NCBI RefSeq assembly: GCF_008728195.1
Contig: NZ_CP031599.1
Span: 62,001 to 126,000, forward strand
Direction: 5' to 3'
Length of the DNA stretch: 64,000 nucleotides
From: Roseovarius indicus
Lineage (GTDB): Bacteria > Pseudomonadota > Alphaproteobacteria > Rhodobacterales > Rhodobacteraceae
The notes under the pieces are model-generated. The model saw only the letters and a list, made by a program, of their open reading frames with translations. It had not been told where the DNA came from and made no database searches. Below, one piece after another: positions 1,973-57,093 of the stretch; the first letter of the stretch is position 1, and every line of letters begins with the position of its first letter. A program made the translations under genes and the position numbers.

Positions 1973-2019
1973 TTTGCTTATCCACAGTGTCGCAGATACG
2001 TCGTGTTCGGCGCACGCGT

Positions 2020-2682
2020 TCAACTTTGCGCTGTCACGCTATCCTCGGCCGAGTAAAGAAACGCTGTCGAACCGATCCTGACGTTCGGGTAAAGTTCATT
2101 GATGTGGGCCATGACCATCCGGACGCAGCCAGAACTTGCGCGACCTCCAATACTTTTTGGATAAGGTGTGCCATGGATCCGTAGGTAGCTATCCCGGTTT
2201 CCAACATAAAGATAAAGCGCACGTGACCCAAGTGCGTTGGTCGGGCCGGGTTCCATACCACCTGCGTATTGCTCGTACTCCGGATTGCGTTCAATCATGT
2301 TTTTGGTTGGCGTCCAATGAGGCCATTTCACCTTCCGCTTAATCGCATAAGTTCCCGGCTCATAAAGGTCGCCCTTCGCAATGGCCACGCCATAGCGCAT
2401 TGCCGTTCCACCTTCTTCGATGTGATAGAGGTATCGCGCCACTGCATCCACGTGGATGTCGCCCGGAACGAGGCTGCGCTTCGCAACGACGCGCTGCGGC
2501 AAAAATCGTGGATGCAGACCCCACGGGTTGGTCGTGGCTGAGTCGTAACCAAGCGGTGTGACTTGCTCGTCCCAAGCCGCCTTTTGCGATTCTGTTGGCC
2601 ACGTGTCGGCTAAGAGCGGGCTGGCGATTGAGGCTGAAAAAAGCGCAGTCGTCGTTTGGATGAAGTGACGTCTTGTCAGCAT
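2020..2682 (-). CDS. L,D-transpeptidase (YkuD domain), Tat-exported
   Basis: The enzyme would form 3-3 cross-links in, or attach proteins to, peptidoglycan in the periplasm. The 220-residue protein starts MLTRRHFIQ, a twin-arginine signal. The catalytic region contains the conserved histidine-glycine (RIHGTPYP) followed by SSGCVRM, the SxGC(I/V)RM catalytic cysteine motif. The ATG at 2682 is preferred over an in-frame GTG at 2700 because AAGGAA lies 8 bases before it. A MerR-type promoter lies 130 bases upstream. A paralogue follows at 3110-3691. Confidence 0.93.
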   Translation of the reverse strand: MLTRRHFIQTTTALFSASIASPLLADTWPTESQKAAWDEQVTPLGYDSATTNPWGLHPRFLPQRVVAKRSLVPGDIHVDAVARYLYHIEEGGTAMRYGVAIAKGDLYEPGTYAIKRKVKWPHWTPTKNMIERNPEYEQYAGGMEPGPTNALGSRALYLYVGNRDSYLRIHGTPYPKSIGGRASSGCVRMVMAHINELYPNVRIGSTAFLYSAEDSVTAQS

Positions 2683-7957: not shown

Positions 7958-8877
7958 ACCCGGGACTTCTGGAGCCGCCGATGGGGGTTCGCATGGCGCG
8001 ACCAAACCGGCGTCCATTTTGCGATTGCGTCATCGGTGATGCATTCCTCGCCTGTGATAATGGCGTCGATGGAAAGATCCTTGACCAGAGCGAAGATGCG
8101 CGAGGTCACCCCACCGGTCAGTGCCAAGACCTGCTTGAGAGATTTGACCTTCAGGTTGGACTTCTTTTCCAGTGGCATGGCAGCAATAAGGGTCTGGATC
8201 ATGTCCGAGAACTCGGCATCGTCGCGCCAGTTTGGCAGATGATGTTCGTCCAGCCGTCGGGCAAGCTGGATATCACCGCGAATAGCATCGACGGCCTCGC
8301 TGACCCCAAGGCAGACCAGTGACACCTCGAGTTCATTGCTGAGATACCGCAGGACATTGAGAAATCGGCGCTGTTCGCGGTGGGTCCCGGCCAAGAGATT
8401 GTGGACCTCGTCGATCATGATCATCCGCAGGCCAAGGTCGCGTAAGAGCGCGATGACACGGACTTCGAGGGAAGCCACATTTTGAGCGCGGGCGCTAAGA
8501 GCCGTCGCCGGGGCGCCGACGGCGGCCAGGATGTGCAGGTAAAACCGCCGTTCATCAGGTGCGGGCGGCGCTTGCAACAGCAGAAGCGGTGTGCGGGTGA
8601 TGCCCGACGCCGGATCGTATTCTGGTGCGTACTTGCGCGACAGGTTTCGGGCAATCATCGTCTTTCCGATCCCGGAGGCGCCATGCACAAGAAGCCCAGG
8701 CATACGGGTTTGTCGTGGCGCTTCGATCATGCCCTGCAAGCGGTCCAACACCTGTTCCGCCCGAGGAAAGCCGATCCAGATATCCGATTGAATGAGGGCG
8801 ATCCGGCCGTCTTCTTCAGTTGTCCCTGCCCTCAATTCACCATCTCTCCACCTTGAACAATGGGCGCGATGTATCAC
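7954..8877 (-). CDS. tniB: TniB-family AAA+ ATPase of transposition
   Basis: TniB/TnsC-type ATPases bind target DNA and activate the DDE transposase. The frame encodes up to 307 residues with Walker A GASGIGKT, Walker B MIMIDEVHN and a sensor-like VCLGVSEAVDA segment. The gene overlaps the tniA 3' end. The first about 14 codons are uncertain: a TTG start in the tniA-stop region (GAATTGAGG) is as plausible as the ATG at 8877. It looks intact, but tniA beside it is broken, so the element should be immobile on its own. Confidence 0.88.
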   Translation of the reverse strand: MIHRAHCSRWRDGELRAGTTEEDGRIALIQSDIWIGFPRAEQVLDRLQGMIEAPRQTRMPGLLVHGASGIGKTMIARNLSRKYAPEYDPASGITRTPLLLLQAPPAPDERRFYLHILAAVGAPATALSARAQNVASLEVRVIALLRDLGLRMIMIDEVHNLLAGTHREQRRFLNVLRYLSNELEVSLVCLGVSEAVDAIRGDIQLARRLDEHHLPNWRDDAEFSDMIQTLIAAMPLEKKSNLKVKSLKQVLALTGGVTSRIFALVKDLSIDAIITGEECITDDAIAKWTPVWSRHANPHRRLQKSRV

Positions 8878-9837
8878 CCGTATCGATCGGGCGCAGCCCT
8901 TCGGTTGTCGAGACGGCCGAGTTCGTGCCCTTCAATGTCCCTTTTCTTTCACGGGTTCTGCGTTCGGCCTTCGTCAGGCCCCGGCTTTCAGCTTCGATCT
9001 GGCGTTGCTGTCGGATCAGCTCAGCCAGCACCAGCTCATTAGACCCGGACTTGCCAAGGGCACGGGCCTTCCTCATCGCTTCGCGATATTCCCAGAGCGA
9101 GACGGGCGGAATTTCCAGGTTTCTGTACCGCGCCTCAACATACCGGCCATCGTCCAGTTCGACCCAGATCATTGAGATATCGCGAGGATCGTAGCGAACG
9201 ACCACCTTTCCATCCCCGCGCCCAATGTGGCCTGCAAGGGCATCGGACCAGTACCTTATCTGGAACAGATGGATGCCGTCACGCCTGATCTTGCGCAGTT
9301 CACTCGGCAGGAAGCTCACCTGAAAGGCTTCCATCTCGAAGGGGATGTCGCCTGTCATTTGCTCTGAGAGCGCCTCCCATTTGGCAACGGGCGTGCAGCC
9401 AAGACTTGAATGAATGCTGTTGTTGTAACGGCAGATTTCCAGAGCAAACCAGCGATCGAATTCGCTCAACGTCATCGTGGCCTTGCTTTCGGCGTCATAG
9501 TCGCCCTTTGCCGCGATCGAGGATTGCGTTGTTCCCGGCAACAGGTGAACGGCCCCCATCATGGTGCCGATCAACCGTTCGATGTGACCACCGAAGTGAG
9601 GACTTGCTGGCGGTCGATAGACCAGATCGATCCCCCAATCCGCACAGGCCGACCGAAAGGCGCGCGACCGGAAATCGCGACCGTTATCGACGTGGATGCT
9701 GTGCGGTTTGCCCTGTGCCGGCCAAGGAACATCGCACGCCAATTCCGCAAGAAGTTCCTCCTTGAGGGCCACCGCCTGTGTCAGGCAAAGCGCCACTGAC
9801 AGACGCGAAGGTGCCTCGAGAGAGGTGTAATATCCGG
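8837..9837 (-). pseudogene. tniA: TniA transposase, 5'-truncated by ISKra4 copy B
   Basis: Only the C-terminal about 333 residues of this Mu/TnsB-type integrase remain. Visible are the second catalytic aspartate region (HVDNGRDFRSRAF) and the catalytic glutamate (GGHIERLIGTM), then the Mu-type C-terminal beta-barrel (VVVRYDPRDISMIWV). The first catalytic aspartate and the DNA-binding N-terminus are missing upstream of 9837. The open frame continues artificially into the antisense strand of the IS. Confidence 0.88.
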
Positions 9838-11277
9838 GGGAGTGGGCAAAACCTGGGGGTGTCTGTGTATGTTGGTGGTTCATTGAGAGGGGAACTGCCA
9901 TGGACGTGCGGATTATAGTCGAGACGACCTTTGAGAACGGAACCACAAAGAGGCATCCTCTCGGCCGTTTGTCCCGCCCGTTTCGACGCACGCAGCCTGA
10001 GGGGTTCGGGTTGTTACTCGAAGATGCGAAGACGATCCTGGGGCAATTACAGAATGCGATCCTGCTCGACCAGATCGAGGAAGTTTCCGAAGCCAGCAGA
10101 ATATGTCCTGACTGCGACGAGGTCCGAGCCATACATGATTATCGGCCTCGGGTGCTCGACACCCTCTTCGGCAGGTTCCAGGTCAAGGCGCCGCGCATTC
10201 GTCGCTGCGCCTGCGATACAAAATCCGACGACGTCCTGGGCGGACCGCTTTCGCCACTCGCTCATTTTTTTCCGGACCGGTCGACTCCGGAACTGCAACG
10301 CCTTCAGGCCGAACTTGGGGCACGGCATTCCTTCCGGGAAGCGGCACGAATCCTGGAAACCTTCCTGCCTTGCGCGAAGCAGGTGAATACATCGGTGCGC
10401 AATCGTCTGGGCAAAGTCTCCCGGGAGATCTGCGACAGCGAGCAGACTCAGCCTGTAATTCCTTCGGCCGCCGAAGAGGCGTCTGCGTTGACGGTTTTCC
10501 TGGACGGTGCGCATATCCGATGCCGACCGGAATACCAGAAGCGACACCTCGATGTTGTGGTTGGCAAGATCGAAAGCCACGACAAGTGCCGCCGCTTCGG
10601 CCTTGTTCAGCAGGCAGTCCTGTCACCTGCCAGCCAGCTTCGCCAGGACTTGAGGGCTCTCGGTTGGGATCACAAACAAACCGTCACGGTGATTTCGGAC
10701 GGGGAACCCGCCCTGCCGAACCTCGTGCGCGTCGCCGTCGGTGGAAAGGTTCGCCACATTCTCGACTGGTGGCATATCTCGATGCGCATTCAGCACGTTG
10801 AGAACGCCGTAAAGGGCCTGCTGCAGAGCAGGGGCTTCTCCGGCATTCCAGTGCTGTTCAAACGTCCCGCCGAAACGCTGCGATGGTACCTTTGGCATGG
10901 AAAAGTTCTAACGGCCACGACCAGTCTCCAATGGTTGATGGTCGATTGCACGCGGCTGGCTACAGATGACCGCGTGGCGACTGATGCGGCCCGGCGAGTG
11001 CAAGCCCGGTGCCGCGATCTGTACTCATACCTTGCAAACAACATGGACAGCCTGACCGACTATGGTCGGCGGTACCGCGCGGGTCTTCCGATTTCTTCGT
11101 CCCGGGCAGAGGGCTGCGTGGACGACATCGGGAACACCCGCATGGGCAAGCGCCGCCGCATGAGATGGTCGCCCAAGGGAGCCCACCGCGTGGCCGTTGT
11201 CCGCGCCGCGGTTCTCGACGGTCGGCTAACCGGCGCGTACCAAAGAGCCGCGTGACCCCCAGGTTTTGCCCACTCCC
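9838..11277 (+). mobile_element. ISKra4-family insertion sequence, copy B (1440 bp)
   Basis: Same length and ends as copy A but in the opposite orientation. Its flanks (AATATCCGG on the left, CCTCGCCTT on the right) are not duplicated. Both neighbouring genes, tniA and the cyclase-like gene, stop at its edges. The lack of duplication plus two truncated genes indicates a deletion or rearrangement at this element after insertion. Confidence 0.92.
9900..11255 (+). CDS. ISKra4-family transposase (copy B)
   Basis: The 451-residue protein is practically identical to the copy at 5715-7070; the one difference I noticed is isoleucine for valine in QTQPVIPSAAEE. It starts at MDVRII and ends QRAA just inside the right terminal repeat. 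It appears intact, so the element may still move. Confidence 0.9.
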   Translation: MDVRIIVETTFENGTTKRHPLGRLSRPFRRTQPEGFGLLLEDAKTILGQLQNAILLDQIEEVSEASRICPDCDEVRAIHDYRPRVLDTLFGRFQVKAPRIRRCACDTKSDDVLGGPLSPLAHFFPDRSTPELQRLQAELGARHSFREAARILETFLPCAKQVNTSVRNRLGKVSREICDSEQTQPVIPSAAEEASALTVFLDGAHIRCRPEYQKRHLDVVVGKIESHDKCRRFGLVQQAVLSPASQLRQDLRALGWDHKQTVTVISDGEPALPNLVRVAVGGKVRHILDWWHISMRIQHVENAVKGLLQSRGFSGIPVLFKRPAETLRWYLWHGKVLTATTSLQWLMVDCTRLATDDRVATDAARRVQARCRDLYSYLANNMDSLTDYGRRYRAGLPISSSRAEGCVDDIGNTRMGKRRRMRWSPKGAHRVAVVRAAVLDGRLTGAYQRAA

Positions 11278-44771: not shown

Positions 44772-45068
44772 TTAGAAACCGGAGAACACCATATCGAGTG
44801 CACCTCGGATTTCGTAATCGGCAACAGAAAGATCGGCGACAGGCTCTCCCTTAAGCAGTATTGACGGGATCGCAGCCATCTCGGCCGTATGCAGAACGTA
44901 ATCCGACCCTTCGATCTTGAAGACCGGTTCAAGGCGCCTGATGGCTGTCGGACCAGAAGCCGCCGGCAAGAGCGGCGCCACCACGCGTGTTCCAGTGTCG
45001 ATCAAATCAGTCTGAAGATCGAGCACAAGCCTGTCGCCGGCCGTGCGAAAAACCTGGAATTGCGCCAT
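44772..45068 (-). CDS. ccdB: CcdB-family toxin (gyrase poison), locus 1
   Basis: CcdB proteins trap DNA gyrase. The 98-residue protein fits end to end: MAQFQVFRTAGDRLVLDLQT DL, then RVVAPLLPA, LHTAEMAAIPSILL and the C-terminal DMVFSGF that ends almost all CcdBs. Its ATG overlaps the antitoxin stop (TGATG). Confidence 0.93.
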   Translation of the reverse strand: MAQFQVFRTAGDRLVLDLQTDLIDTGTRVVAPLLPAASGPTAIRRLEPVFKIEGSDYVLHTAEMAAIPSILLKGEPVADLSVADYEIRGALDMVFSGF

Positions 45069-45313
45069 CAGCCCATTTTCAAGACCTGAAGGTCAGCCAA
45101 CTGTGTCCCATGCGCCTCTATCCATGCCCGGCGCTCTTCAATTGCATTTGCGTTCTCCTTGGCCCAGGCATTTGCTTTCGCTTTACGAACGGCTTCGGCA
45201 ACCGCAGCTTCACTGATAGCCGAAACATTAAGACCCAATTCCCGCGCGGCAGCGAGATTTGCCGCCGTCAGGGTGACGTTTGTGCGTTGTTTTTCAGAAG
45301 TGGGTTTCGGCAT
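45068..45313 (-). CDS. ccdA: CcdA-family antitoxin, locus 1
   Basis: The 81-residue protein starts at ATG 45313 with GGAGG eight bases upstream (MPKPTSEKQRTNVTLTAANL). The N-terminal ribbon-helix-helix is TNVTLTAANLAAARELGLNV. The C-terminal tail AWIEAHGTQLADLQVLKMG would bind CcdB. It overlaps ccdB by one base; the palindrome upstream is the likely operator. Confidence 0.92.
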   Translation of the reverse strand: MPKPTSEKQRTNVTLTAANLAAARELGLNVSAISEAAVAEAVRKAKANAWAKENANAIEERRAWIEAHGTQLADLQVLKMG

Positions 45314-45339
45314 AAAGGCCTCCATGTGCATATTAGAAA

Positions 45340-45358
45340 TACACACTTCAAGTGTGTA
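45340..45358. promoter_or_regulatory. Perfect palindrome, candidate CcdAB operator
   Basis: TACACACTTcAAGTGTGTA is a perfect 9-bp inverted repeat around one base, 26 bases upstream of the ccdA ATG. CcdA ribbon-helix-helix repressors bind such palindromes with CcdB as co-repressor. Confidence 0.7.
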
Positions 45359-45599
45359 ACGCAATAGATGCCCCATGATCCACGACCAAGTGAGACGAGC
45401 GGCAGCAAGCTGTAGGTCGCGGGATTCAGCGACAAGTCCGTGAACGGATACCTCGGAGAAAGAGGAATTCGCTCATGCTGCAACCGGGCACTTGTGCCTG
45501 AAGAACCGACCGACGGGAGCTCGAACACGCCACTCCGCTTGCGCATTCTCGGGAAAAACCAAGCTGTATCTTATTCGCGAGAGGCAAATCTTGCCATGA

Positions 45600-46022
45600 T
45601 TGATTGTTTTCAAGCCGCGCATGAGAGAGGTCGTAGAAACATTTCTGGAGCCTGACTTCGTCCGTTCTGCGCCAGATGGCGCTCGTGCGAAATGCCCGGC
45701 GTGCGGCGAAAGCTTTGTCAAGACACGCCGAAACAAGCTGTATTGCAGCCGTGCCTGTGCAAAAGCTCGCGCGGCACGCATGGTGCTGGAAAACAGGGAC
45801 GAGGATCTCATCGAGCGACGTCGTCGACGTAAGGCTGACGGAAACGCGCGCCTGATCGAGCGGCTCGATCAATTGTCGGTGGAGTATGTCCAGCTGGTGT
45901 CAATCGGCCGAAACCGCGATCATACTCAGCGCTTTCTGGAGTATGTCCTGGTTTCAGCGCGAGAGTGTGGCCCCCTGCGCCAGCCTCTGTCGGTAAATGT
46001 TGACAGGTTTCTCGTCGGCTAA
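45600..46022 (+). CDS. Small zinc-finger-like protein
   Basis: The 140-residue protein contains a clear four-cysteine zinc-binding motif, CPACGESFVKTRRNKLYCSR AC, with CxxC and Cx3C pairs about 17 residues apart, as in zinc-finger domains that recognise nucleic acid. A basic helical region follows (ERRRRRKADGNARLIERLDQ). The start could be ATG 45600 or 45621 (MREVVETFLE); neither has a convincing ribosome site. It is convergent with ccdB locus 2, overlapping it by four bases. Function unknown. Confidence 0.6.
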   Translation: MIVFKPRMREVVETFLEPDFVRSAPDGARAKCPACGESFVKTRRNKLYCSRACAKARAARMVLENRDEDLIERRRRRKADGNARLIERLDQLSVEYVQLVSIGRNRDHTQRFLEYVLVSARECGPLRQPLSVNVDRFLVG

Positions 46023-46318
46023 AAACCAGAAACCAATAGATCAATGGCAGCGACTATCTCGTCGCGCCAGGCCGATGCATCACCGATAACAGAACCGATT
46101 TGTGCGCCCGGAATAGCAACCAACTGCGACATGATTATGATGTGCGGGACGCCGTCCAAGTGAATGGGAATATGAAGTTTTGGAATCAGTGCTCCCCATT
46201 CGGAGCGAAGGAGGACAGGCGCACAAAGAATATAGGGTGTCTCAATGCCGAGATCTTTCTGAACCCGGCACACAATTTCGTTGCCATCGCGCATGCGATG
46301 GATGTTTCCTTGCATCAT
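46019..46318 (-). CDS. ccdB: CcdB-family toxin, locus 2
   Basis: The 99-residue protein (MMQGNIHRMRDGNEIVCRVQ KDL) follows the CcdB pattern: PYILCAPVLL, MSQLVAIPGAQIGSVIGD and the terminal DLLVSGF. It is distant from locus 1. It lies 11 bases after its antitoxin gene on the minus strand. Confidence 0.85.
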   Translation of the reverse strand: MMQGNIHRMRDGNEIVCRVQKDLGIETPYILCAPVLLRSEWGALIPKLHIPIHLDGVPHIIIMSQLVAIPGAQIGSVIGDASAWRDEIVAAIDLLVSGF

Positions 46319-46329
46319 ATCTTTCTTGC

Positions 46330-46575
46330 TTAAACCTGTCTGAACCGAGCGAGACTGGGTCCGTTCTGCTCAAGATGGCAGCTTTCATCGGCGATGCCTT
46401 CTTTAGCAGACGCGATCCAGGCGGCTCGCTCGCGCTCAGCCCTGGACCTTGCGATGCCAGCGTCGATCCAGTCCCGAACAACCTCAGCAATAGAATTGCC
46501 TGTGGCTTTCGCCTCCAATTCGAGGGCCGCCTTGCGATCCTTACCAATGTCACGAATATTCAGTGGTGAAGGCAT
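46330..46575 (-). CDS. ccdA: CcdA/ribbon-helix-helix-type antitoxin, locus 2
   Basis: The 81-residue protein starts at ATG 46575 with GAGG upstream (MPSPLNIRDIGKDRKAALEL). The N-terminal half looks like a ribbon-helix-helix (KDRKAALELEAKATGNSIAE). The C-terminal tail ends SLARFRQV. Its place before ccdB supports the antitoxin role; it is not closely similar to the locus 1 antitoxin. Confidence 0.78.
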   Translation of the reverse strand: MPSPLNIRDIGKDRKAALELEAKATGNSIAEVVRDWIDAGIARSRAERERAAWIASAKEGIADESCHLEQNGPSLARFRQV

Positions 46576-46600
46576 GATAACCTCGCTTTCATGCGGATTA

Positions 46601-46620
46601 ATGTGCAAGTTGATACACAT
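46601..46620. promoter_or_regulatory. Imperfect palindrome, candidate operator of ccdAB locus 2
   Basis: ATGTGcaaGttgataCACAT has 5-bp complementary outer arms and a CAA-G-TTG core, 26 bases upstream of the antitoxin ATG. The distance matches that of the locus 1 palindrome. Confidence 0.45.
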
Positions 46621-46660
46621 AGAGCAATACAACATACAGCACAAGGGCCGTTGCTAATGA

Positions 46661-48603: not shown

Positions 48604-49208
48604 CCCCGGGAATGCCCGGATCATTTGTGTAAAAAGGGCGAAACCGCACCTTGGTTTCGTCTGACATCAGCCACCATAGGGGCGGGGCCGCCGATGGGGG
48701 CCCTGCTACCGCTATGTCTCATTGGACTTGCACGAGTCTGGAATACAAGCCTTACCCACGGCGCCCGTTGGGCCTCCGCCCCCGTCCAGAATCTCCGAAG
48801 GGTCAAATCTGACTGATTTCCATTATCAAACGTTTCAAGAGCCCGCACTCCACGGTTGAACAAGATTTCGACGGAACCTTGGCCCGAAGCAGGGCATTGC
48901 GTCGTAACGCTGGATGGCGGACCATCTCGCATCGCGTACCCTGGCGGCAGGCAGCAGTAACATGGGCTGTCTGGTAGCTCTGGTCAGGGCAAACTGCGGG
49001 CGGCTCGTCATTCGAACGACTTGAGTTCATTCGGATTGGACCCATGAAGAACTTCTGCGGATTCTGCCAGTAGTAGCGCGCCGCTCGATATGGGCGAAAC
49101 GGGAAGCACCCGCAATCCAGCCGCCTTTTTTGCGGGAGGTGTTTTGCGCGTGCAATTTGAAACCTCCCTGGCCGGGACCTTTCTCCACGAAAAGACGTGG
49201 AGAAGCCA
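48604..49208. other. Gene-free stretch before the excisionase-like gene
   Basis: About 600 bases with no convincing frame. The segment just before 49209 carries GGAG for the next gene. Confidence 0.4.
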
Positions 49209-49592
49209 ATGTGCTGTTCGAAAAACTCAGGATGTGACGACCTTCGGCTGCTCAGCCGCAAGCAGCTGATCCGGCGATGGCAATGCGGAAGTGATGCGTT
49301 GTTCTGGCGCGCGGAGCGCGATGGCCTGCTGTTGCCACATCGCGACGGGCGTCGGACGGGCTATGCGGAAGGCGACGTGTTCGCGTTCGAAGGCGGGCGG
49401 CCGCCGAAGGGCCTTCTCGAGGCGTATCGTGCGGATCTCATGACACCGGACGACGTCGCGGCGCGCTGTCCGCTGACACGGGGCACGATCCTCGATCGTG
49501 CCCGGAAGGGTGTGTTGCCGGCCCGCCGGATCGGCACGGCCTGGCGATTTGTTCCCGCGGAAGTTGCCCGTTGGCTCAAGACTTGGCCGTGA
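49209..49592 (+). CDS. Excisionase-like helix-turn-helix protein
   Basis: The 127-residue protein starts at ATG 49209 (a GTG at 49197 is also in frame). It contains two DNA-binding-like segments: residues about 12-40 (LRLLSRKQLIRRWQCGSDAL, a degenerate winged helix) and residues about 78-125 (LMTPDDVAARCPLTRGTILD, then GVLPARRIGTAWRFVPAEVA), the HTH_17/excisionase pattern. It precedes the hairpin arrays and two tyrosine recombinases, so a role as directionality factor or regulator fits. That role is inference. Confidence 0.7.
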   Translation: MCCSKNSGCDDLRLLSRKQLIRRWQCGSDALFWRAERDGLLLPHRDGRRTGYAEGDVFAFEGGRPPKGLLEAYRADLMTPDDVAARCPLTRGTILDRARKGVLPARRIGTAWRFVPAEVARWLKTWP

Positions 49593-49681
49593 CTCCCGAG
49601 GACAAAAAAGTAACAATAATAATCAGCAGCTTATCGCGCCTTCTGCGATTTCGGCTTCCGTGTCATCGCGGCTGACCCCCT

Positions 49682-50110
49682 ATCATCAATGTCTGCAGCA
49701 GCGGAGTGACTCGCCAAGGGAAGGCCCGCCGAACCGGCTGTCCAGGCAGGGGGCGCATGACTGGGCCCTTCAGATTTTCCGCCGAACAGGCGGCTTAGAA
49801 AATCGTGGTGGCAAACCGCGGTGACCTTCGAACAACAAGTGTGGCCAGCGGAATGGGGCTCCAGAGCCCTCGCGCCATGAAACATTCGCCGCCGAACAGG
49901 CGGCTTAGCAATCGAATCCGGTCGCGAGACCTTGGTGCCTGACCCGATATTCGGGCTCCCAACGGGCAGGGGCTTCCAGGCCTCAATGCCTCAATCTTTC
50001 TCCGCCGAACAGGCGGCGCCTGATCCTGTCTGCCCTGGTCGAAAGACCCGGTGGCTTTGCGCCGGGATCTCGGAGCGCCCCGCAGGTTTCCTTCCTGCGG
50101 GTCGTTTTTC
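49682..50110 (+). ncRNA. Array 1: three repeated CCGCC-GAACA-GGCGG hairpin modules closed by a terminator
   Basis: A conserved leader (GACCCCCTATCATCA at 49676-49690) is followed by hairpins CCGCCGAACAGGCGG at 49780, 49890 and 50003 (spacings 110 and 113), the first two followed by CTTAG. The last lies 77 bases before an intrinsic terminator at 50080-50110. Between modules are further stems, such as GGGCTC/GAGCCC (49857-49870) and GGTC/GACC (50038-50049). There is no open reading frame on the plus strand. I read this as one structured transcript of about 430 bases. I cannot assign it to a known RNA family. Confidence 0.6.
50080..50110 (+). terminator. Intrinsic terminator of array 1
   Basis: CCCGCAGG (50080-50087) pairs with CCTGCGGG (50095-50102) over TTTCCTT and is followed by TCGTTTTT. 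A textbook Rho-independent terminator for plus-strand transcripts. Confidence 0.85.
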
Positions 50111-50334
50111 GGCGCCCAGGGCCCACAGGCATCGAACGCTCTAGCGATACCGAATACCCGGCGCGTTGGGGCGTGCCCGACCGACGCCAGGCCCCCACCC
50201 TTTGGCGGGACTATTGCCGGATTGCGCATGTCTTGGCTGCAATCGTCAGCGCCATGTTTGCCGCGTTTCTTCCGTTCATTCTCCGGACCTATTTCCCGGG
50301 TTCCAGATTCAATTCGCAACAAGAGGACCAGGAA

Positions 50335-51354
50335 ATGCTGAAACAATCCAACATAAACAGACAATCCGCGCCGACCCTGATCACGACAAACGCCCTGCAT
50401 GTCGGGGCGACATACCGCGTCGCGGCCGACAGGCTCAACGCCGAGGGCTATTTGCCTGACGACGATTTCCGTCTTGCGCGCGATGTGCAGGACGATGGTC
50501 AGCGCCTGCCTGATATCACGCCTGACTATCTTCGCGATTGCCATGCCCGCGTTACAAGCTTTCGGGACGACCTCTCGCGTCCCGGCGATCCCGAGGCGCA
50601 AGCCCTCACATCGTTGCTTGCTGTCCACGGCAAGCTCGTACATGCAGCCAGCCATGGCCCGCGCGATCAATTCGAAAGACTGGGCGGTCTTGCGACAATT
50701 GAGGAAGAAATGGCCCTCTCGTTCAAAAAGACTGGGAGAGCCGATGACGCCGCGCAGGCGCTGATACGCTACGCCGCGAAGTCTTGCGACAAGGCTATCC
50801 TGACACGTCTGCACGAGTATTTCGACGGGCTCGCCGGGCCTGTCGCCGCGACGTCTGGTCAGTCATTCAGCCGGGTTGTCCGCGATCTTTGGCGTAACGG
50901 GAAGATCGAGAGTGATGACTCTCGGCGCAAGCTCAATCCAACTTTTTTTAAAACATGTCCGCTCTTTGCAGTACCCTCGGGGCAATTCCTGAAGGAGACC
51001 TCGGCATGCATTCGGGATATCATGCCCGAGGTGGACGGCGCACGGGACCACCCGCTTTGGGGGCGGACCGCCATCGAGAATGATATCGCGGAGTTCCAGG
51101 CCGCGGCCAGGCAGATACGGAATGCCAGTTCTCCTAGCCAGTCAGCCCGGATGAAAGCGTATGCCGGGATCATGGGCTCCGTCGCATCCATGACCGAGCG
51201 GGCCGGGCTGAACCTGGCGCAGTCGTACCCGACGTCGGAGAAGGTGATGGCGCTGTTTTCGCTCTGTGACAGCGCGGCCGGCCGCAGCCACATCTATCAG
51301 AGGCGTGCGCGTCAACATCAACCGCCATCGACATCTTGCACGGCACGCCACTAA
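50335..51354 (+). CDS. Hypothetical protein encoded between the two hairpin arrays
   Basis: The 339-residue protein starts at ATG 50335 (MLKQSNINRQSAPTLITTNA) with GAGGA eight bases upstream; an open extension upstream lacks a ribosome site. It is predominantly helical and cytoplasmic (DFRLARDVQDDGQRLPDITP, LLAVHGKLVHAASHGPRDQF, LFAVPSGQFLKETSACIRDI). I recognise no family, catalytic motif or membrane segment. Its position between two copies of the same RNA-like array is its main clue. Confidence 0.65.
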   Translation: MLKQSNINRQSAPTLITTNALHVGATYRVAADRLNAEGYLPDDDFRLARDVQDDGQRLPDITPDYLRDCHARVTSFRDDLSRPGDPEAQALTSLLAVHGKLVHAASHGPRDQFERLGGLATIEEEMALSFKKTGRADDAAQALIRYAAKSCDKAILTRLHEYFDGLAGPVAATSGQSFSRVVRDLWRNGKIESDDSRRKLNPTFFKTCPLFAVPSGQFLKETSACIRDIMPEVDGARDHPLWGRTAIENDIAEFQAAARQIRNASSPSQSARMKAYAGIMGSVASMTERAGLNLAQSYPTSEKVMALFSLCDSAAGRSHIYQRRARQHQPPSTSCTARH

Positions 51355-51632
51355 CTCTCGTGGGCTTCATGCAGAGGGATGAAATAACCTCTGCTTTGAG
51401 CTTGCCGGGCCCGCGGACCCGCATCGCCTTGAATCGATGACGCGGAACGAAAGCGCGGAGCGGCGCCGGCCGGCGGGTCGGCGCGGCTTGCCGGTGCGTT
51501 TCCTGAAAATTACGCGATGGCCCGAACCCTGGTCTCGAGGGCAGCAGAAATCGCAAAAAAAGAAACACCAAAAATCAGGGGCTTGCAATGTTTTCCGGGT
51601 TTTTGTCTTCCGAGTCCGTGCCGTCGACCCCC

Positions 51633-51913
51633 TATCATCAGTGTCGGGAGCAGCGACGTGGGGCAAAGGCCCTGCCCGATGCTCCCGGATCCGCCGCCGA
51701 GCAGGCGGCTTAGAAGAAGAACGTGGCGATCACCCGCAATGCCTGGCCTGAACCCCGGCCGGTCCGCGGATTGGAACCTTCGGGTCCGCACGCCATGAAG
51801 CATTCGCCGCCGAACAGGCGGTTCGTGTTCCAAACGTCCGGGTCACACGACCTGGAAAGATGGTCTGCTTTCAACTTCGCGGCCCGCAGGATCCTGTCCT
51901 GCGGGTCTTTTTT
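51633..51913 (+). ncRNA. Array 2: two repeated hairpin modules closed by a terminator
   Basis: The leader matches array 1 (GACCCCCTATCATCA at 51626-51640). Hairpins lie at 51694-51708 (loop GAGCA) and 51807-51821 (loop GAACA), 113 bases apart, and the last is 76 bases before the terminator. The module stem GGAACC/GGGTCC (51773-51787) corresponds to GGGCTC/GAGCCC of array 1, with two compensating base-pair changes and the same 19-base distance to the next CCGCC hairpin. GGTC/GACC recurs at 51841-51852. This conserved layout points to a structured RNA, about 280 bases long. Confidence 0.6.
51883..51913 (+). terminator. Intrinsic terminator of array 2
   Basis: CCCGCAGGA (51883-51891) pairs with TCCTGCGGG (51897-51905) and is followed by TCTTTTTT. 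The stem is the same as in array 1. Confidence 0.85.
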
Positions 51914-51996
51914 CGTTTTGCGATGAACCAATTTGAAACCGCCCCTTCGTGGAGCTTTCTCCGTCTCATGCCTGTCCGACACGCGTGAGATCACCG

Positions 51997-52212
51997 ATGA
52001 AACAAGCCTTCGAAACCCCATCCGATGCCCTCGAGCGAGGGCCTGCCGCAGACCCGCCGTCTGAACGGAAAACCCCAGGTTTGAACGGCCTTGAAACGCA
52101 TCTGAACGAAACGCCTATCCAGATTTACGGCCCTTATCTGCACCCCCGTTCCGTTCAGCTCGGCGTGACTGAACGGACGGCGCTGCCGATGAACACTCCA
52201 CCTTCCCGATGA
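51997..52212 (+). CDS. Possible small protein before the recombinase genes
   Basis: A 71-codon frame from ATG 51997 (MKQAFETPSDALERGPAADP) ends 15 bases before the recombinase start. It is proline-rich with no family resemblance and only a weak ribosome site. The same DNA holds repeated CTGAACGG motifs, so this frame may be fortuitous. Confidence 0.3.
   Translation: MKQAFETPSDALERGPAADPPSERKTPGLNGLETHLNETPIQIYGPYLHPRSVQLGVTERTALPMNTPPSR
52061..52176. repeat. Cluster of CTGAACGG repeats upstream of the recombinase operon
   Basis: CTGAACGG at 52061, TTGAACGG at 52081, CTGAACGA at 52102, inverted CCGTTCAG at 52151 and CTGAACGG at 52169. The first three are 20-21 bases apart, about two helical turns. 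This looks like a cluster of protein-binding sites (recombinase arm sites or an operator) 50-170 bases before the recombinase start. Confidence 0.5.
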
Positions 52213-52227
52213 AAGAAAGGAAAATCG

Positions 52228-54081
52228 ATGCAAATCGAAACTCTCCAACATGTTTATCAACTCCTTCCGGATCTCTATTCGGAAACCTCGCGGGACGCGT
52301 ATCGCGCCGCGTTCCGGCGCGCGGAGCGGTTGACGAACAAGAAGCTGTGGCAGCTCGCGGCCGACGAGCGGGCCTGGGAGCAGGAGCTCTCGAAAATCGT
52401 CTGGGCCGGCGAATTCCGCGCAAAGACTCCGGAAGCTGCCGAGCGCGCGTTCGAGACCTGGGGCGGCAAGATCCCTGCGGCGATCCGACGCGCGCGCAAG
52501 CATGTCGGATCGGGTCCGGCAACTAACCGGGACGCCAAGCAAGCATGGGACCGGATCGCGGATTATGTGTCCGACGTTGAAAACTGCGTCGATGAGACGG
52601 GCCAGAGGATTCTGCCGAACATGTCCGGCCTGTCGATCGCAAATCTGCGCGCGCGCCTCGGGCACATGCGTCCGCAAACGGTGGATACCGAAGGTGCAAT
52701 CGAGGCACTGAGGAAGCTCCCCGCGGACAAGACGGAGAGTTATCGGAATGCTGTGCGTTTCTTCAATCGCCTGATCCGCGAGCAGAACCGCCACGCGCCC
52801 ATCGCGGACCTGCTGCCCGATCGGCAAGTGGGGGAGTTGCCCACGCGGCGCGATGCGCCGCTCGACTGGTCGCGCTTCTCGCAGGAGTTCCTCGACGCTC
52901 GTGACACCGCCCTGGACCAGGCGGTGCAGGTCGAGGCAAACAAGAAAAGCTCTCGCGCCGCCCGGATTGCCGCACGGCGCCAGAACAAACGCCTGCGCCG
53001 TCGGCGCGTCTTCAATCCGGACGCGACACGGAAGAACTATGTCCGCTCGCTGTCCTGGCTTGCACGCCATGCCGAAGAAGATCGCGGTAACGTCTACGAT
53101 GTCAAAACGCTCGATGACCTCGTCACGGAAGATCGCGTCGAGGCGGCGGTCAAGCGCTACATTGCCCGCGGCCAGTCCGACGAGGAGCTCCGCGATACGA
53201 CACAGACGAGTTCGGTGAAGAGCTACTTGTCGGCTCTCTTGTCGCTTGCCCGGCGCAACGGAATGCCGGAAGACTTGGTCTTCGCGCTCGAAGATATCGC
53301 CGACGATCCGGACTATGTCTCGGATCGCGATGGAGAGATGTCCGCGACGCGCGAAGAGTTCATCCGTCTTGTCGATCGCGACCCGGCGATCGTGCGAGCG
53401 ATTGTCACCGGTCCGGAGACGCTCCTGCGGGAAGCCCGGCGGGGTTTCGATCGCTGGGAGCGGTTGAGTGACGCTCAAAAAGCCGAAACACTCCACCTGT
53501 CGATCGCGGCCGCCGCGATGGCCGTGCAGCTGGCGCGGCCGCTTCGGACGCGCAACGTCAACGAGTTCGACGCGGGCGGGCAGGGTACTGATCTCGTCGC
53601 ACCGCGCCGCGCGGGCGCGAAGGCGTGGATCGAGATCGATCGAAGCAAAGTGAAGAACCGCCGCGCAATCGAAGGCCCGGTGCCGGACTGGCTGTGGGCA
53701 GTTTTCGAAGCTTGGCAGGAAGAGGGGCGATCGCGGTGGATCGCGCGGCACAAGAAGACCGGCTGTCGCGACACCGACGCGCTCTTTCCCGGAACTCGGG
53801 GGGGCTATCTCACGCGCTCGACATTCAACAAGTGCTGGAACCGTGGCATGTCGCGTCTGGGGCTTACCGGCCTTACGCCGCACACGATGCGCCACGTCGC
53901 GGCGACGCTCTATCTCGCGGTGCATCCCGGCGACTATCATGTCGTGGCAGCACTGCTCTGCGACGAGTTGAAGACCGTCGAGCACTTCTATGCCCGCGGT
54001 GAGGGACGGGCGGCCGCCGAGCTCTTCGCACAGGTGCTGGAAGACCTGCATCCAACCCTGGGCCTGCGGGGGAACGCGTGA
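52228..54081 (+). CDS. Large tyrosine recombinase 1
   Basis: The 617-residue protein starts at ATG 52228 with GAAAGGA upstream. The C-terminal catalytic domain has the first arginine region (LARPLRTRNVNEFD), HTMRHVAATL (H-x-x-R), and the terminal DELKTVEHFYARG with the tyrosine nucleophile. A SAM-like core-binding segment precedes it (SLSWLARHAEEDRGNVYDVK). It is longer than the usual 300-400 residues because of an N-terminal domain of about 250 residues. The gene overlaps recombinase 2 by one base. Confidence 0.85.
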   Translation: MQIETLQHVYQLLPDLYSETSRDAYRAAFRRAERLTNKKLWQLAADERAWEQELSKIVWAGEFRAKTPEAAERAFETWGGKIPAAIRRARKHVGSGPATNRDAKQAWDRIADYVSDVENCVDETGQRILPNMSGLSIANLRARLGHMRPQTVDTEGAIEALRKLPADKTESYRNAVRFFNRLIREQNRHAPIADLLPDRQVGELPTRRDAPLDWSRFSQEFLDARDTALDQAVQVEANKKSSRAARIAARRQNKRLRRRRVFNPDATRKNYVRSLSWLARHAEEDRGNVYDVKTLDDLVTEDRVEAAVKRYIARGQSDEELRDTTQTSSVKSYLSALLSLARRNGMPEDLVFALEDIADDPDYVSDRDGEMSATREEFIRLVDRDPAIVRAIVTGPETLLREARRGFDRWERLSDAQKAETLHLSIAAAAMAVQLARPLRTRNVNEFDAGGQGTDLVAPRRAGAKAWIEIDRSKVKNRRAIEGPVPDWLWAVFEAWQEEGRSRWIARHKKTGCRDTDALFPGTRGGYLTRSTFNKCWNRGMSRLGLTGLTPHTMRHVAATLYLAVHPGDYHVVAALLCDELKTVEHFYARGEGRAAAELFAQVLEDLHPTLGLRGNA

Positions 54082-55556
54082 TGCCCCCGAAACCCCAAAG
54101 CCGTGCCGTCCGGGCCGAGGCTCTGGTGGCAACAATGCCCAATGTCCCGTGCGACGTGGCCGATCGTCTGCGCCAGGCCGCGCTCGTCAAAGACCTTGCG
54201 CCGCGGGGCATGCCCGCGGCGCTGGAGCGCTTCTTTTCCCGCCTGGCGGCGGAGGGTCGCGCTCCGGAGTTCGCACAGGCGGAGGACTTTGCCGCCTCGA
54301 CGCAGAGCCGGACGGCGTTCCGCACACTCTTGGCGGCGCTGTCGCGGTTCGCGCCGGATGTGCCGACCGCGGCGGCCGTGCCGGTCAAGCGCGACTGGGA
54401 CGCCTGGCTCAACGGGCGGTACAACACCCGCGCCCCGCGTCCGCGCCGTTCGCGTCGCGAAGCCTTGAGGCCCGAGGAATGGCCCGAGGCCTGGCGTGCC
54501 GCCTTGCCGTGTCTCGCCCGGCGTGCTCGGCGTGACGGACGGCGGTATCGTCCTCTCGGATCGAAGAGCAGGGGCTCGGTGGTCCAGGCGGTCGGGCTCC
54601 TGGCGCTTGCGCGGGAGAACGCGATCGCCGAAGGCAGCGAGTTCGGAGACGGGTTCACGCCGGAACTCGCGGAGGCGTTTCTCGGCTTCCTCGTCGAGCG
54701 TGTAAACCCGCGGAGCGGGGAGCCCATCCGGTTCGGGACAATCGCCGATTATTTTGAGCGCGTGATGTGCCTTGCCGCCCGTGCCGAACTCTACGCGCCG
54801 GACGGTGAAGCCTCCTTCGGAGAGATACTCGCGGCCTGCCGCGCGGAGGCGGCCGAGGAGACGCCGATGAAACGGGCCAGGATGCGGGAGTTCCGCGAAA
54901 AGCACGGGCTCGATGGCGTCCTTCTTGCGGCCGTCGCGGCAAGCGAGGAGGCGCGCGATCTGCCCGGGCATTCGGACAGGGCGGCCCGCCTGCGGCGCAA
55001 GGCGGTCGTCTTCGCGCTGCTTGTCAACGGTGTAGACCGGCAGGGAGACCTGTCCGAGTTTCGGATCGGACGCGACATCGTTCGCCGGGCGGACGGAACC
55101 TGGGAACCGGCGTTCCGGCAATCGAAGACGGCTCGCTGGAAGGAGAACGGTCCGCTCTGGGGGCTGACCGGTTTGCTCATCGATGCCCATGTGCTCGAGG
55201 GCCGACCGGCCTGGTGCATCGAGACACGCATTGCCGAGCTCGATGGGTGCAATCTCCTGAGCCTGCAGGCGGAAGGCTTCGACACGTATCACGCGTCCAA
55301 GCTGCTTCGCGAGGCGTTCGGGATATCCGGGCATCTCATCCGCACGGCCGTCACCGACTTGCTGCGCCGCCACCGCCCCGATGCTGCCTGGGCCGTCCAG
55401 AGACTGCTGGGACATTCCGTCGAATGGATGCAGGAGAACTACCGAAGTGAGTTCGCGGAGGTCGCGAGCGTGGAGAAATACCACGCCGCCTTGGAGATGC
55501 TTGTTCGGGGAGAAACCTCCCCGGCTTCGGCGCCAAGGCGACGAAAGCGCGGTTGA
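54081..55556 (+). CDS. Tyrosine recombinase 2, coupled to recombinase 1
   Basis: The 491-residue protein starts at ATG 54081, overlapping the previous stop (TGATG); a GTG one codon earlier is also possible. The catalytic part shows VFALLVNGVDRQGDLSEFRI, then HLIRTAVTDLLRRH (H-x-x-R) and LLGHSVEWMQENYRSEF (G-H and tyrosine nucleophile). Two overlapping, divergent recombinases suggest a heteromeric machine like those of paired or trio-recombinase elements; no third recombinase gene follows. Confidence 0.85.
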   Translation: MPPKPQSRAVRAEALVATMPNVPCDVADRLRQAALVKDLAPRGMPAALERFFSRLAAEGRAPEFAQAEDFAASTQSRTAFRTLLAALSRFAPDVPTAAAVPVKRDWDAWLNGRYNTRAPRPRRSRREALRPEEWPEAWRAALPCLARRARRDGRRYRPLGSKSRGSVVQAVGLLALARENAIAEGSEFGDGFTPELAEAFLGFLVERVNPRSGEPIRFGTIADYFERVMCLAARAELYAPDGEASFGEILAACRAEAAEETPMKRARMREFREKHGLDGVLLAAVAASEEARDLPGHSDRAARLRRKAVVFALLVNGVDRQGDLSEFRIGRDIVRRADGTWEPAFRQSKTARWKENGPLWGLTGLLIDAHVLEGRPAWCIETRIAELDGCNLLSLQAEGFDTYHASKLLREAFGISGHLIRTAVTDLLRRHRPDAAWAVQRLLGHSVEWMQENYRSEFAEVASVEKYHAALEMLVRGETSPASAPRRRKRG

Positions 55557-55563
55557 GGCAACG

Positions 55564-55603
55564 ACGGGTCGCCGCTGTTCTCAGCAAGGCAGTGGCGACC
55601 CGT
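55564..55603. repeat. 10-bp perfect inverted repeat directly after the recombinase operon
   Basis: ACGGGTCGCC (55564-55573) and GGCGACCCGT (55594-55603) are perfect complements 20 bases apart, starting 8 bases after the recombinase 2 stop. There is no T-run. It may be a terminator, or a recombination core site with the symmetry expected for a tyrosine recombinase. The rest of 55604-55882 has no recognised gene. Confidence 0.5.
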
Positions 55604-55882
55604 TGGACGTGCGGTCGCGGATCTTGGGATCATCCGGATAGGTGCCAGGGACGCATTGCTGCGTTGGGGGAAAAACTGCGACGCTGGGTGGGGCGCCGGT
55701 CTCATGGAGGATCGACGCGCCGGCGTCGTTGGGTCCGGCCAGAAGGTGTAGATTGGTGTTTATCCGGCAGTGCCATCCCTGGCGCAGACAAAGCCACCAT
55801 CGGCATCGAACCCAATCCGCTGGCCAAGCGCACGTTTCGCAGGGCAGGGGCAGCATCGGTTCAAGCGACTAAACGCCGTCAC

Positions 55883-56590
55883 TCAGAACACACGGTCGCG
55901 ATATGCGAGGACGACCTGGTCTTCGTGGCCGAGGAATGCGTACTGGTAAGACATGTGAACGGTATATCCGTGCACACTGCGATTATCGAACCACTTCTTT
56001 GCCTGCTCCCGTTCGGCGCGCATGGCCGCGTCGTTGTCCTCTGCGAAGGCTTCATACGCCGCCAGTCGTTTCAGGCGGGCATGCGCGCTTTCCTCGTCAC
56101 GGGCTTGCAACTCGAGAGCGGCCACGGCGCGCAGAAGCAGCAGCGACATCACTTCCTCGCGGGTGATATACCGGCAGACGTTGTCCAGCGACTCCCACAG
56201 ATGCTCCAGAGCGCTATCGGAGAGGCGCGCGAGTTCACAATTGCCGCAAGCCGCGCGGGCTTCCGCCTCGGCTTCCGAAATATGCTCGATCAGCGGGCCA
56301 AGTTTACCTCGGACCGAGCGTGATCCGAGGACGTCGAGATCGCATGTGAAAGCCGGCGGACTGGTCCTTGGCCGGGGCTTTACGTTTGAAACGAGCCTCA
56401 ACTTGCGCACGCGCATGTTCTTGTAGAACGCGACGTGTCCGAGACACGGCACGCAGTAGTGAAACGGCGCAAGTCGCTTTCGGGCTTCGCGGACCTGCAT
56501 CCCGTCGTACTCCCGGTAAATGGGGGCGGCGGCCTTCTGCAGTTTCGATTCAAGCCGGTCGCGCGTGTTGACCGGAGGGCATATCAGCAT
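55883..56590 (-). CDS. Hypothetical protein with CxxC-type motifs
   Basis: The 235-residue protein starts at ATG 56590 (MLICPPVNTRDRLESKLQKA) with AAAGGA upstream; the frame is open further up but unconserved-looking. Cysteine pairs at HYCVPCLGH and ACGNCELAR could bind metal. The rest is helical (EEVMSLLLLRAVAALELQAR, HARLKRLAAYEAFAEDNDAA). No family is recognised. It is convergent with the recombinase operon. Confidence 0.6.
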   Translation of the reverse strand: MLICPPVNTRDRLESKLQKAAAPIYREYDGMQVREARKRLAPFHYCVPCLGHVAFYKNMRVRKLRLVSNVKPRPRTSPPAFTCDLDVLGSRSVRGKLGPLIEHISEAEAEARAACGNCELARLSDSALEHLWESLDNVCRYITREEVMSLLLLRAVAALELQARDEESAHARLKRLAAYEAFAEDNDAAMRAEREQAKKWFDNRSVHGYTVHMSYQYAFLGHEDQVVLAYRDRVF

Positions 56591-57093
56591 GTCGAGGTCC
56601 TTTCCTGGGCGGTGATGCACGGGATGTTGGCCTGTTTCGTGTTTCCCGAAATCGAAAACCAGAAAGTGCCGCAACGTCAGCGGGGCGCCTGGACTTGGGT
56701 CCAGGGCTCGCGGGCGCGCATGTCTCGGCGTTGCTTGGTTCAGAGCGATTGACGCGGAAATGAAATCCGGCAGGTCAGGAGGCACACAGGGCGACTTTGG
56801 TGTCATGCGGGTCATGGAAATGAATTACCGGCGTGACACCAGTTTGATCGGGCGGGGGCTGTCGCTCAGAGCCGGGGAAACCGGTTTCTTCGGTGCAACC
56901 TGCTGGCAACACCGTATGGCCGACGGGCAAGAACGCCGAGCTCCCGCCCGGGTGGGACGGACGACTACCGTAAGAATGCGGGATTGACCCCGCCGCTGGT
57001 AAGGAAGTCTCCGGGGCGCCGAAACTCGAGACCCTTGCTCAGGGTAGAGCGGATCGCCGCCGGAAGGGCAGAACGGAATATTTTTATGTACCG
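56591..57093. other. Gene-free stretch
   Basis: About 500 bases between two leftward hypothetical genes. No credible frame, hairpin or repeat noted. Confidence 0.4.

Follow-up and report, generated by a model that had tools for sequence, protein, structure and literature searches.

Tandem type I-F CRISPR repeat mimics in an integrase-bearing element of Roseovarius indicus: a candidate multi-unit RNA anti-CRISPR

The stretch of DNA analysed here (the window; 64,000 nucleotides of Roseovarius indicus, contig NZ_CP031599.1, positions 62,001 to 126,000) carries two plus-strand hairpin arrays, one with three hairpins (array 1) and one with two (array 2), and each of them is probably a small-RNA gene of tandem type I-F repeat mimics, i.e. 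a multi-unit RNA anti-CRISPR (Racr) residing in an integrase-bearing element. This reading rests on the identity of the repeat, the layout of the arrays, their conservation in a relative, the recurrence of the layout in viral contigs and the acrIF8 neighbours of two viral arrays; from these we infer that the arrays would be transcribed, cut by Cas6f, loaded with Cas7f and inhibitory. The arrays are accordingly filed as a variant of the RNA anti-CRISPR kind and not as a proven Racr.

The contig of the arrays is a plasmid-like replicon of 450,820 bp, separate from the 5.4-Mb contig. The repeat mimics sit outside a cas locus, beside an excisionase-like HTH gene and a recombinase of a putative mobile element, whose features are as follows (all on the plus strand):

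49197..49592, +, HTH_17 excisionase-like protein (Pfam 9.9e-9; PHROG excisionase 3.2e-8)
49674..49688, +, array 1 leader GACCCCCTATCATCA, common to both arrays (sequence comparison)
49779..49801, +, array 1 I-F repeat hairpin 1 with handle CTTAGAAA (RF01317 match 49774-49801)
49802..49888, +, array 1 interval a, including the 5 nt preceding the next stem
49889..49911, +, array 1 hairpin 2 with handle CTTAGCAA (RF01317 match 49884-49911)
49912..50001, +, array 1 interval b (counterpart present in the related genome G909)
50002..50016, +, array 1 hairpin 3, no handle
50037..50048, +, array 1 tail hairpin GGTC-GAAA-GACC
50079..50111, +, array 1 intrinsic terminator
50335..51354, +, 339-aa reading frame between the arrays, no known family (63% homologue adjoins the G909 array)
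51626..51640, +, array 2 leader, common to both arrays
51694..51716, +, array 2 hairpin 1 with handle CTTAGAAG (RF01317 match 51689-51716)
51717..51806, +, array 2 interval a
51807..51821, +, array 2 hairpin 2, no handle
51841..51852, +, array 2 tail hairpin GGTC-ACAC-GACC
51881..51913, +, array 2 intrinsic terminator
52228..54081, +, tyrosine recombinase 1 (Phage_integrase 1.7e-6; PHROG integrase 9e-12)
54078..55556, +, recombinase-like partner 2 (no family match; HxxR...Y by eye; conserved beside recombinase 1)

The hairpin CCGCCGARCAGGCGG starts at 49779, 49889 and 50002 in array 1 and at 51694 and 51807 in array 2, resulting in hairpin-to-hairpin spacings of 110 and 113 nt in the former and 113 nt in the latter. 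A preliminary description of this DNA had recognised both arrays, placing the hairpins of array 2 exactly and those of array 1 one base too high (49780, 49890, 50003), and was right about the spacing of 110-113, the leader common to the arrays (49674-49688 and 51626-51640), the terminator after each array and the GGTC/GACC stem of both tails, which forms a GGTC-4nt-GACC hairpin at 50037-50048 and at 51841-51852. Each array has the common leader block, the tail hairpin and a strong terminator, and the final hairpin of either array is without a handle while the earlier hairpins carry one. Of the two compensating changes described for an inner stem, both are seen when the window arrays are compared (columns 68-77 and 70-75), and both are broken in G909; since other pairs of that stem are broken in array 2 as well, this detail carries little weight. 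The predicted array transcripts fold strongly (z -4.15 and -2.07). Search with a sigma-70 consensus promoter gave no match on the arrays, while terminators were located at 50079-50101 and 51881-51907 and the leader is conserved; TATCAT in the array 1 leader may be a -10 box. The exact 15-mer pattern occurs in six copies in the 6.17-Mb genome, five of which lie within the window arrays, and the reversed pattern, taken as a control, in one copy.

Judged by the covariance-model match, the hairpin and its downstream bases together make up the type I-F CRISPR repeat, an RNA element already on record (Rfam RF01317, CRISPR-DR4), for which a repeat of 28 nt with a 5-bp stem, a 5-nt loop and the handle CTTAGAAA is required, as scored by the covariance model. 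Infernal matched RF01317 to three of the five window copies at E 0.0096 or better, namely at 49774-49801 (35.0 bits, E 1.4e-5, the best copy), 49884-49911 (30.8 bits, E 2.6e-4) and 51689-51716 (25.7 bits, E 0.0096); for the handle-less last copy of each array no match was reported. A scan of the whole window against Rfam at the gathering score listed nothing, because the best copy with its 35.0 bits sits at the cut-off of 35. Weak Rfam matches to DUF3800-XI, sX13 and BASRCI414 (E 0.6-2.7) were taken as chance. The RF01317 match rules out an RNA family outside Rfam and leaves the earlier suggestion of an unfamiliar modular RNA partly right. What stands of that suggestion is a predicted transcript that is modular and apparently non-coding, has three modules in one array and two in the other, shares its leader and terminators and belongs to an element with recombinases, although its hairpin had already been described; the Rfam match that had been named as a refutation thus applies to the hairpin and not to the tandem off-length layout. 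Likewise, the CTTAG noted after the hairpins is present, but it had not been recognised as the handle of a known repeat nor as absent from the last hairpins.

Scanning of species genomes with a core motif, i.e. a pattern drawn from the window hairpin copies, gave 54 stretches, of which 44 list matches about 60 nt apart, so that most genomic occurrences of the motif belong to true I-F arrays, e.g. in Marinomonas, Halomonas and Selenomonas. In 70 hairpins the search pattern had left the second stem pair free; it was T-A in 64 and C-G in 6 of them, with no mismatch. The basal C-G pair, of which the search pattern prescribed the 3' G alone, was present in 70/70 hairpins and corresponds to the C6-G20 pair of RacrIF1, which according to the available text of PMC10651486 is required for Cas6f binding and inhibition.

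Despite this repeat, the window arrays are not CRISPR arrays: the spacing is wrong, the intervals are related and neither Cas6f nor Cas7f was found in the genome. Type I-F arrays have a repeat spacing of 60 nt (spacers of about 32 nt) as against 110-113 nt here, and the window intervals are similar among themselves and to their G909 counterparts, in contrast to the unrelated, invader-derived spacers of such arrays. Profile searches of the own genome detected neither Cas6f (PF09618) nor Cas7f (PF09615), and each of the two was found in 0/390 genomes of the order; Cas6f was found in 1/289 genomes of the class, and among 36 plasmid records with a Cas7f match none came from Rhodobacterales. In the published Racr survey 83% of the units in CRISPR-bearing hosts match the host subtype, as far as the available text of PMC10651486 goes. 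The element may encounter its I-F hosts elsewhere, I-F systems may be distributed patchily below the species level, or the RNA may be used otherwise. Separately, Salipiger mucosus, a Rhodobacterales genome without a PF09618 match, carries an I-F-type array (L129, 1559-1817, minus strand), whose six repeats follow one another at about 60 nt except at the last step (48).

A CRISPR mini-array or guide RNA, by which a host I-F system would target other elements or repress a gene in a CreA-like manner, is an improbable account of the arrays. Repeats with handles and crRNA-like internal pieces would suit it, and extended spacers still permit interference given a matching target (PMC7296934, available text). 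The intervals, however, measure 82-85 nt instead of 32 and are mutually similar, and such a target did not emerge: array 1 gave no phage match better than E 2, the whole 2.4-kb stretch gave no match to plasmids at E 0.001, and the first 11 nt after each handle have no second exact match within the window.

The excisionase-like HTH gene and the two recombinases form a module that was also found in Thioclava plasmids and in a further genome (G262), where only about 170-180 bp separate the HTH gene from recombinase 1; in the window this slot comprises 2.6 kb and is filled with array 1, the 339-aa gene and array 2. The 339-aa frame has no match in Pfam, PHROG, plasmids or phages and no homologue in the viral contigs, is present in 3/156 relatives (own genome included), and its single-sequence fold was unusable (mean pLDDT 45.6). 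Its residues 124-192 resemble the type III associated Csx21 of PADLOC at E 0.0033, which is probably chance. None of the window frames matched an acr family in Pfam, PHROG or PADLOC. Elsewhere in the window two CcdAB-type toxin-antitoxin pairs lie close together on the minus strand (44772-45376 and 46019-46644; CcdB E 8e-21 and 1.5e-7, CcdA E 6e-18), the frame in the second antitoxin place being without a Pfam match.

The position of array 2 just upstream of recombinase 1 could indicate DNA-level sites for the recombinases. Such a role is extremely unlikely and was rejected, as homologous recombinases (46-53% identical) lack the hairpins in their fetched flanks (L008, L009, L037-L039); moreover, the stem keeps its RNA pairing, matches an RNA family and is followed by terminators. 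The tie to recombinases proposed in the preliminary description is hence not general: homologues in three Thioclava plasmids (8-kb flanks), G262 and G047 (1.5-kb flanks) are without the hairpin, and scanning of these flanks revealed one 16/21 look-alike only, on the opposite strand of L038.

In the same slot, a genome of the same genus (G909) carries a homologue of the 339-aa protein (63%) and a single array of three hairpins (spacings 107 and 113). In tail and terminator this array closely matches array 2, and array 1 is absent. Between window and G909 the hairpins are 87-100% identical and the recombinases 88-90%, as compared with 50-61% for handle plus interval; at the level of sequence the hairpins are therefore held while the intervals change. 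The terminator and the handle pattern are retained in both. Alignment of window 51767-56810 with L436 5570-10618 (G909) gives 88% identity downstream of 51767, while the HTH gene and the 339-aa gene reach about 74-75%, the change falling inside array 2. This step in identity looks as if the cargo had been exchanged by recombination. The 339-aa protein has a further homologue (36%) in L437 (G914:C44, about 8480-9460), which is broken by two stops and adjoins distant recombinases (25-26%), with only weak hairpin look-alikes there.

A more distant case was found in Pseudotabrizicola formosa of the same family, in which an orphan array with an RF01317 match contains four hairpins at steps of 88, 88 and 90 nt. 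A promoter-like TTGACT...TATATC closely precedes this array (by eye) and a terminator follows it; the array resembles array 1 only in short stretches at and around the hairpins. Among 159 genomes of the family, only the own genome and P. formosa matched RF01317 under stricter filters. In the P. formosa locus (L070, reverse strand, 9774-10060) intervals 1 and 2 hardly differ, and they contain 12 nt whose reverse complement lies in interval 3 (by eye).

These relatives bear on two further explanations. Vestigial repeats that were captured with the element and have no present function would agree with the lack of cognate Cas proteins in the hosts examined, but are decidedly improbable, considering that the hairpins are kept while the surrounding intervals diverge and that both genomes have preserved the terminator and the handle pattern. 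Possible, although unlikely, is an RNA derived from I-F repeats with another role, in which the structured intervals would be the active part and the hairpin a processing or protein-binding site for some partner, perhaps the 339-aa protein. That protein travels with the array in G909, no I-F system was found in the 390 genomes of the order, and intervals a and b retain similar folds across 50-61% identity, with double changes in 6/27 and 2/23 pairs, respectively. The covariation terms, however, are poor (+1.34 for a, unfavourable; -1.75 for b, small) and derive from three and two sequences, which are too few, so that an interval structure is unproven; in addition, P. formosa matches array 1 only at and around the hairpins, and a homologue of the 339-aa protein was not found in the viral contigs.

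The preferred reading, a multi-unit RNA anti-CRISPR, leads to the following proposal. Where a cell has a type I-F system, every hairpin would be recognised by Cas6f (Csy4) and cleaved at the 3' base, releasing a leader-plus-hairpin piece, pieces composed of handle, interval and hairpin, and a handle-less tail that extends to the terminator. The internal pieces would mimic crRNAs with a pseudo-spacer of 82-85 nt and hold Cas6f, Cas5f and Cas8f; about 14 Cas7f rather than 6 would assemble on each of them, whereby host crRNAs would be starved of Cas proteins and the element would be protected. Strong folding of the intervals may hinder the loading of Cas7f. RacrIF1 itself, as the available text of PMC10651486 describes it, is a solitary I-F repeat cut by Cas6f, whose piece upstream of the cut holds Cas6f and 8-9 Cas7f, the competition starving the host Cascade; tandem arrays would yield the crRNA-like pieces in addition to one of this type. 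RacrIF1 with an altered handle still inhibits substantially (PMC10651486, available text), and for this reason its mechanism fails to explain the handle pattern of the arrays. As to interval length, the available text of PMC7296934 reports that the I-F1 Cascade assembles on spacer lengths between about 14 and 176 nt, that each 6 nt accommodates one Cas7f (length 6N-4), and that spacers shortened by at least 6 nt cannot trigger Cas2/3.

Off-length tandem I-F repeats also occur in viral contigs (IMG/VR contigs, as predicted there). Four scans for two I-F hairpins, all of which required CTTAG at the first hairpin, gave 18 stretches at a spacing of 86-116 (some of them two short steps and not one long interval), 23 at 38-58, 68 at 59-85 (most being the ordinary 60-61) and 20 at 18-48. 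Two scans without a required handle gave at least 120 stretches each, partly loci already in the set; de-duplication left 27 clusters off the 60-nt period, 10 already known and 17 new, of which 10 were kept by eye and L267, L277, L315, L377, L390, L394 and L414 were dropped as coding or non-I-F repeats. The final, hand-picked set comprises 43 arrays (38 viral, two from the window and one each from G909, P. formosa and a Veillonellaceae contig) with 2 to 5 repeats each, at spacings mostly of 42-50, the others being 51-66, 76, 86-93, 107-115 and one of 23. Near-copies and mixed cases are excluded from the set scored for handles (e.g. L134, L137, L139, L141, L142 and L144-L147, furthermore L157, L077, L201 and L140), and clusters without any handle score of at least 5 were skipped, L293 excepted. 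The Veillonellaceae contig (L104) also carries a real I-F array (29 repeats, period 60), roughly 4 kb away from its tandem pair, which is spaced by 47 nt.

A handle score of at least 6 of 8 was obtained for the first repeat in 42/43 arrays, for the middle repeats in 13/15 and for the last repeat in 8/43, a contrast between first and last that is partly built in because the scans required CTTAG at the first hairpin. For the 10 arrays from the scans without this requirement the corresponding values are 9/10 (first) and 2/10 (last). Most off-length tandem arrays, like those of the window, lose the handle only at the last repeat. The last handle is kept in 85/115 arrays of period 60 versus 6/39 tandem arrays, the control including arrays cut by locus ends; the contrast is weakened by a smaller control of uncut period-60 arrays, which keep the last handle in only 3/7. 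A simple terminator finder was positive for 16/39 tandem and 14/115 period-60 arrays. AcrF8 genes adjoin 2 of the 37 viral tandem arrays (E 1.7e-16 and 6.5e-25), a count with no matched control set, and one of these two arrays also has Aca2 beside it (E 2.2e-19). The scan for acr neighbours covered 121 of 173 frames, the smaller ones, from 35/37 viral loci, and NCBIfam named no acr gene among these 121; the PHROG search of the neighbours relates to the best 25 of 61 families. BLAST of three viral array regions for hosts gave no match.

In the short viral arrays the pseudo-spacers measure 14-22 nt in 26 of 27 intervals and 8 nt in one, several intervals coming from one array and the scans covering spacings of 18-58; this is the range which, according to the available text of PMC7296934, assembles Cascade but is dead. 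One viral tandem pair (L438, about 1978-2026, minus strand) has an interval of 8 nt, also on the 6N-4 grid. Tentatively, we suggest that tandem I-F mimics could be an overlooked, widespread second form of RNA anti-CRISPR which acts via length-altered crRNAs: pseudo-spacers of 14-22 nt would yield a stable Cascade unable to engage Cas2/3, whereas long intervals would serve as Cas7f sponges. In that case retention of the handle would be explained by the product, a full but dead Cascade, in contrast to RacrIF1.

CreTA is a Cascade-repressed toxin with a CreA guide. It resembles the window arrays in being a repeat-like RNA outside an array, and differs in that its seed matches the toxin promoter, no exact 11-nt seed match being found elsewhere in the window. 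With a type I-F CRISPR array (RF01317) the arrays have the repeat hairpin and the handle in common, yet their spacing is 110-113 instead of 60, their intervals are related and no cas genes were found. Virus-borne CRISPR mini-arrays likewise have few repeats, lack cas genes and reside on mobile elements; their spacers mostly target related viruses, while no target was found for the window arrays (PMC11656645, available text). Solitary repeats and mini-arrays are described in the available text of PMC10651486 and of PMC11656645, a review of CRISPR in mobile elements, and no description of off-length tandem I-F arrays was found in the literature searched, which covered few subscription papers and preprints. 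SRUFinder, as far as its description in PMC10651486 is available, groups full matches that lie no more than 100 bp apart and discards such groups, so that arrays with the layout described here would be missed. The arrays point to a class of multi-repeat RNA anti-CRISPRs removed by the design of a published search procedure. What seemed an unknown RNA can be put to the test as a counter-defence element, and a simple prediction about the mechanism follows from interval length: short intervals would give dead Cascades and long ones Cas7 sponges. The closest known systems are RacrIF1 and the other solitary RNA anti-CRISPRs in the available text of PMC10651486, with which the arrays share an I-F mimic outside a cas locus, a mobile element, the layout of a small-RNA unit and predicted binding and cutting by Cas6f; from these solitary units the window arrays differ in their 2-3 tandem repeats, the structured intervals of 82-85 nt and the retention of the internal handles.
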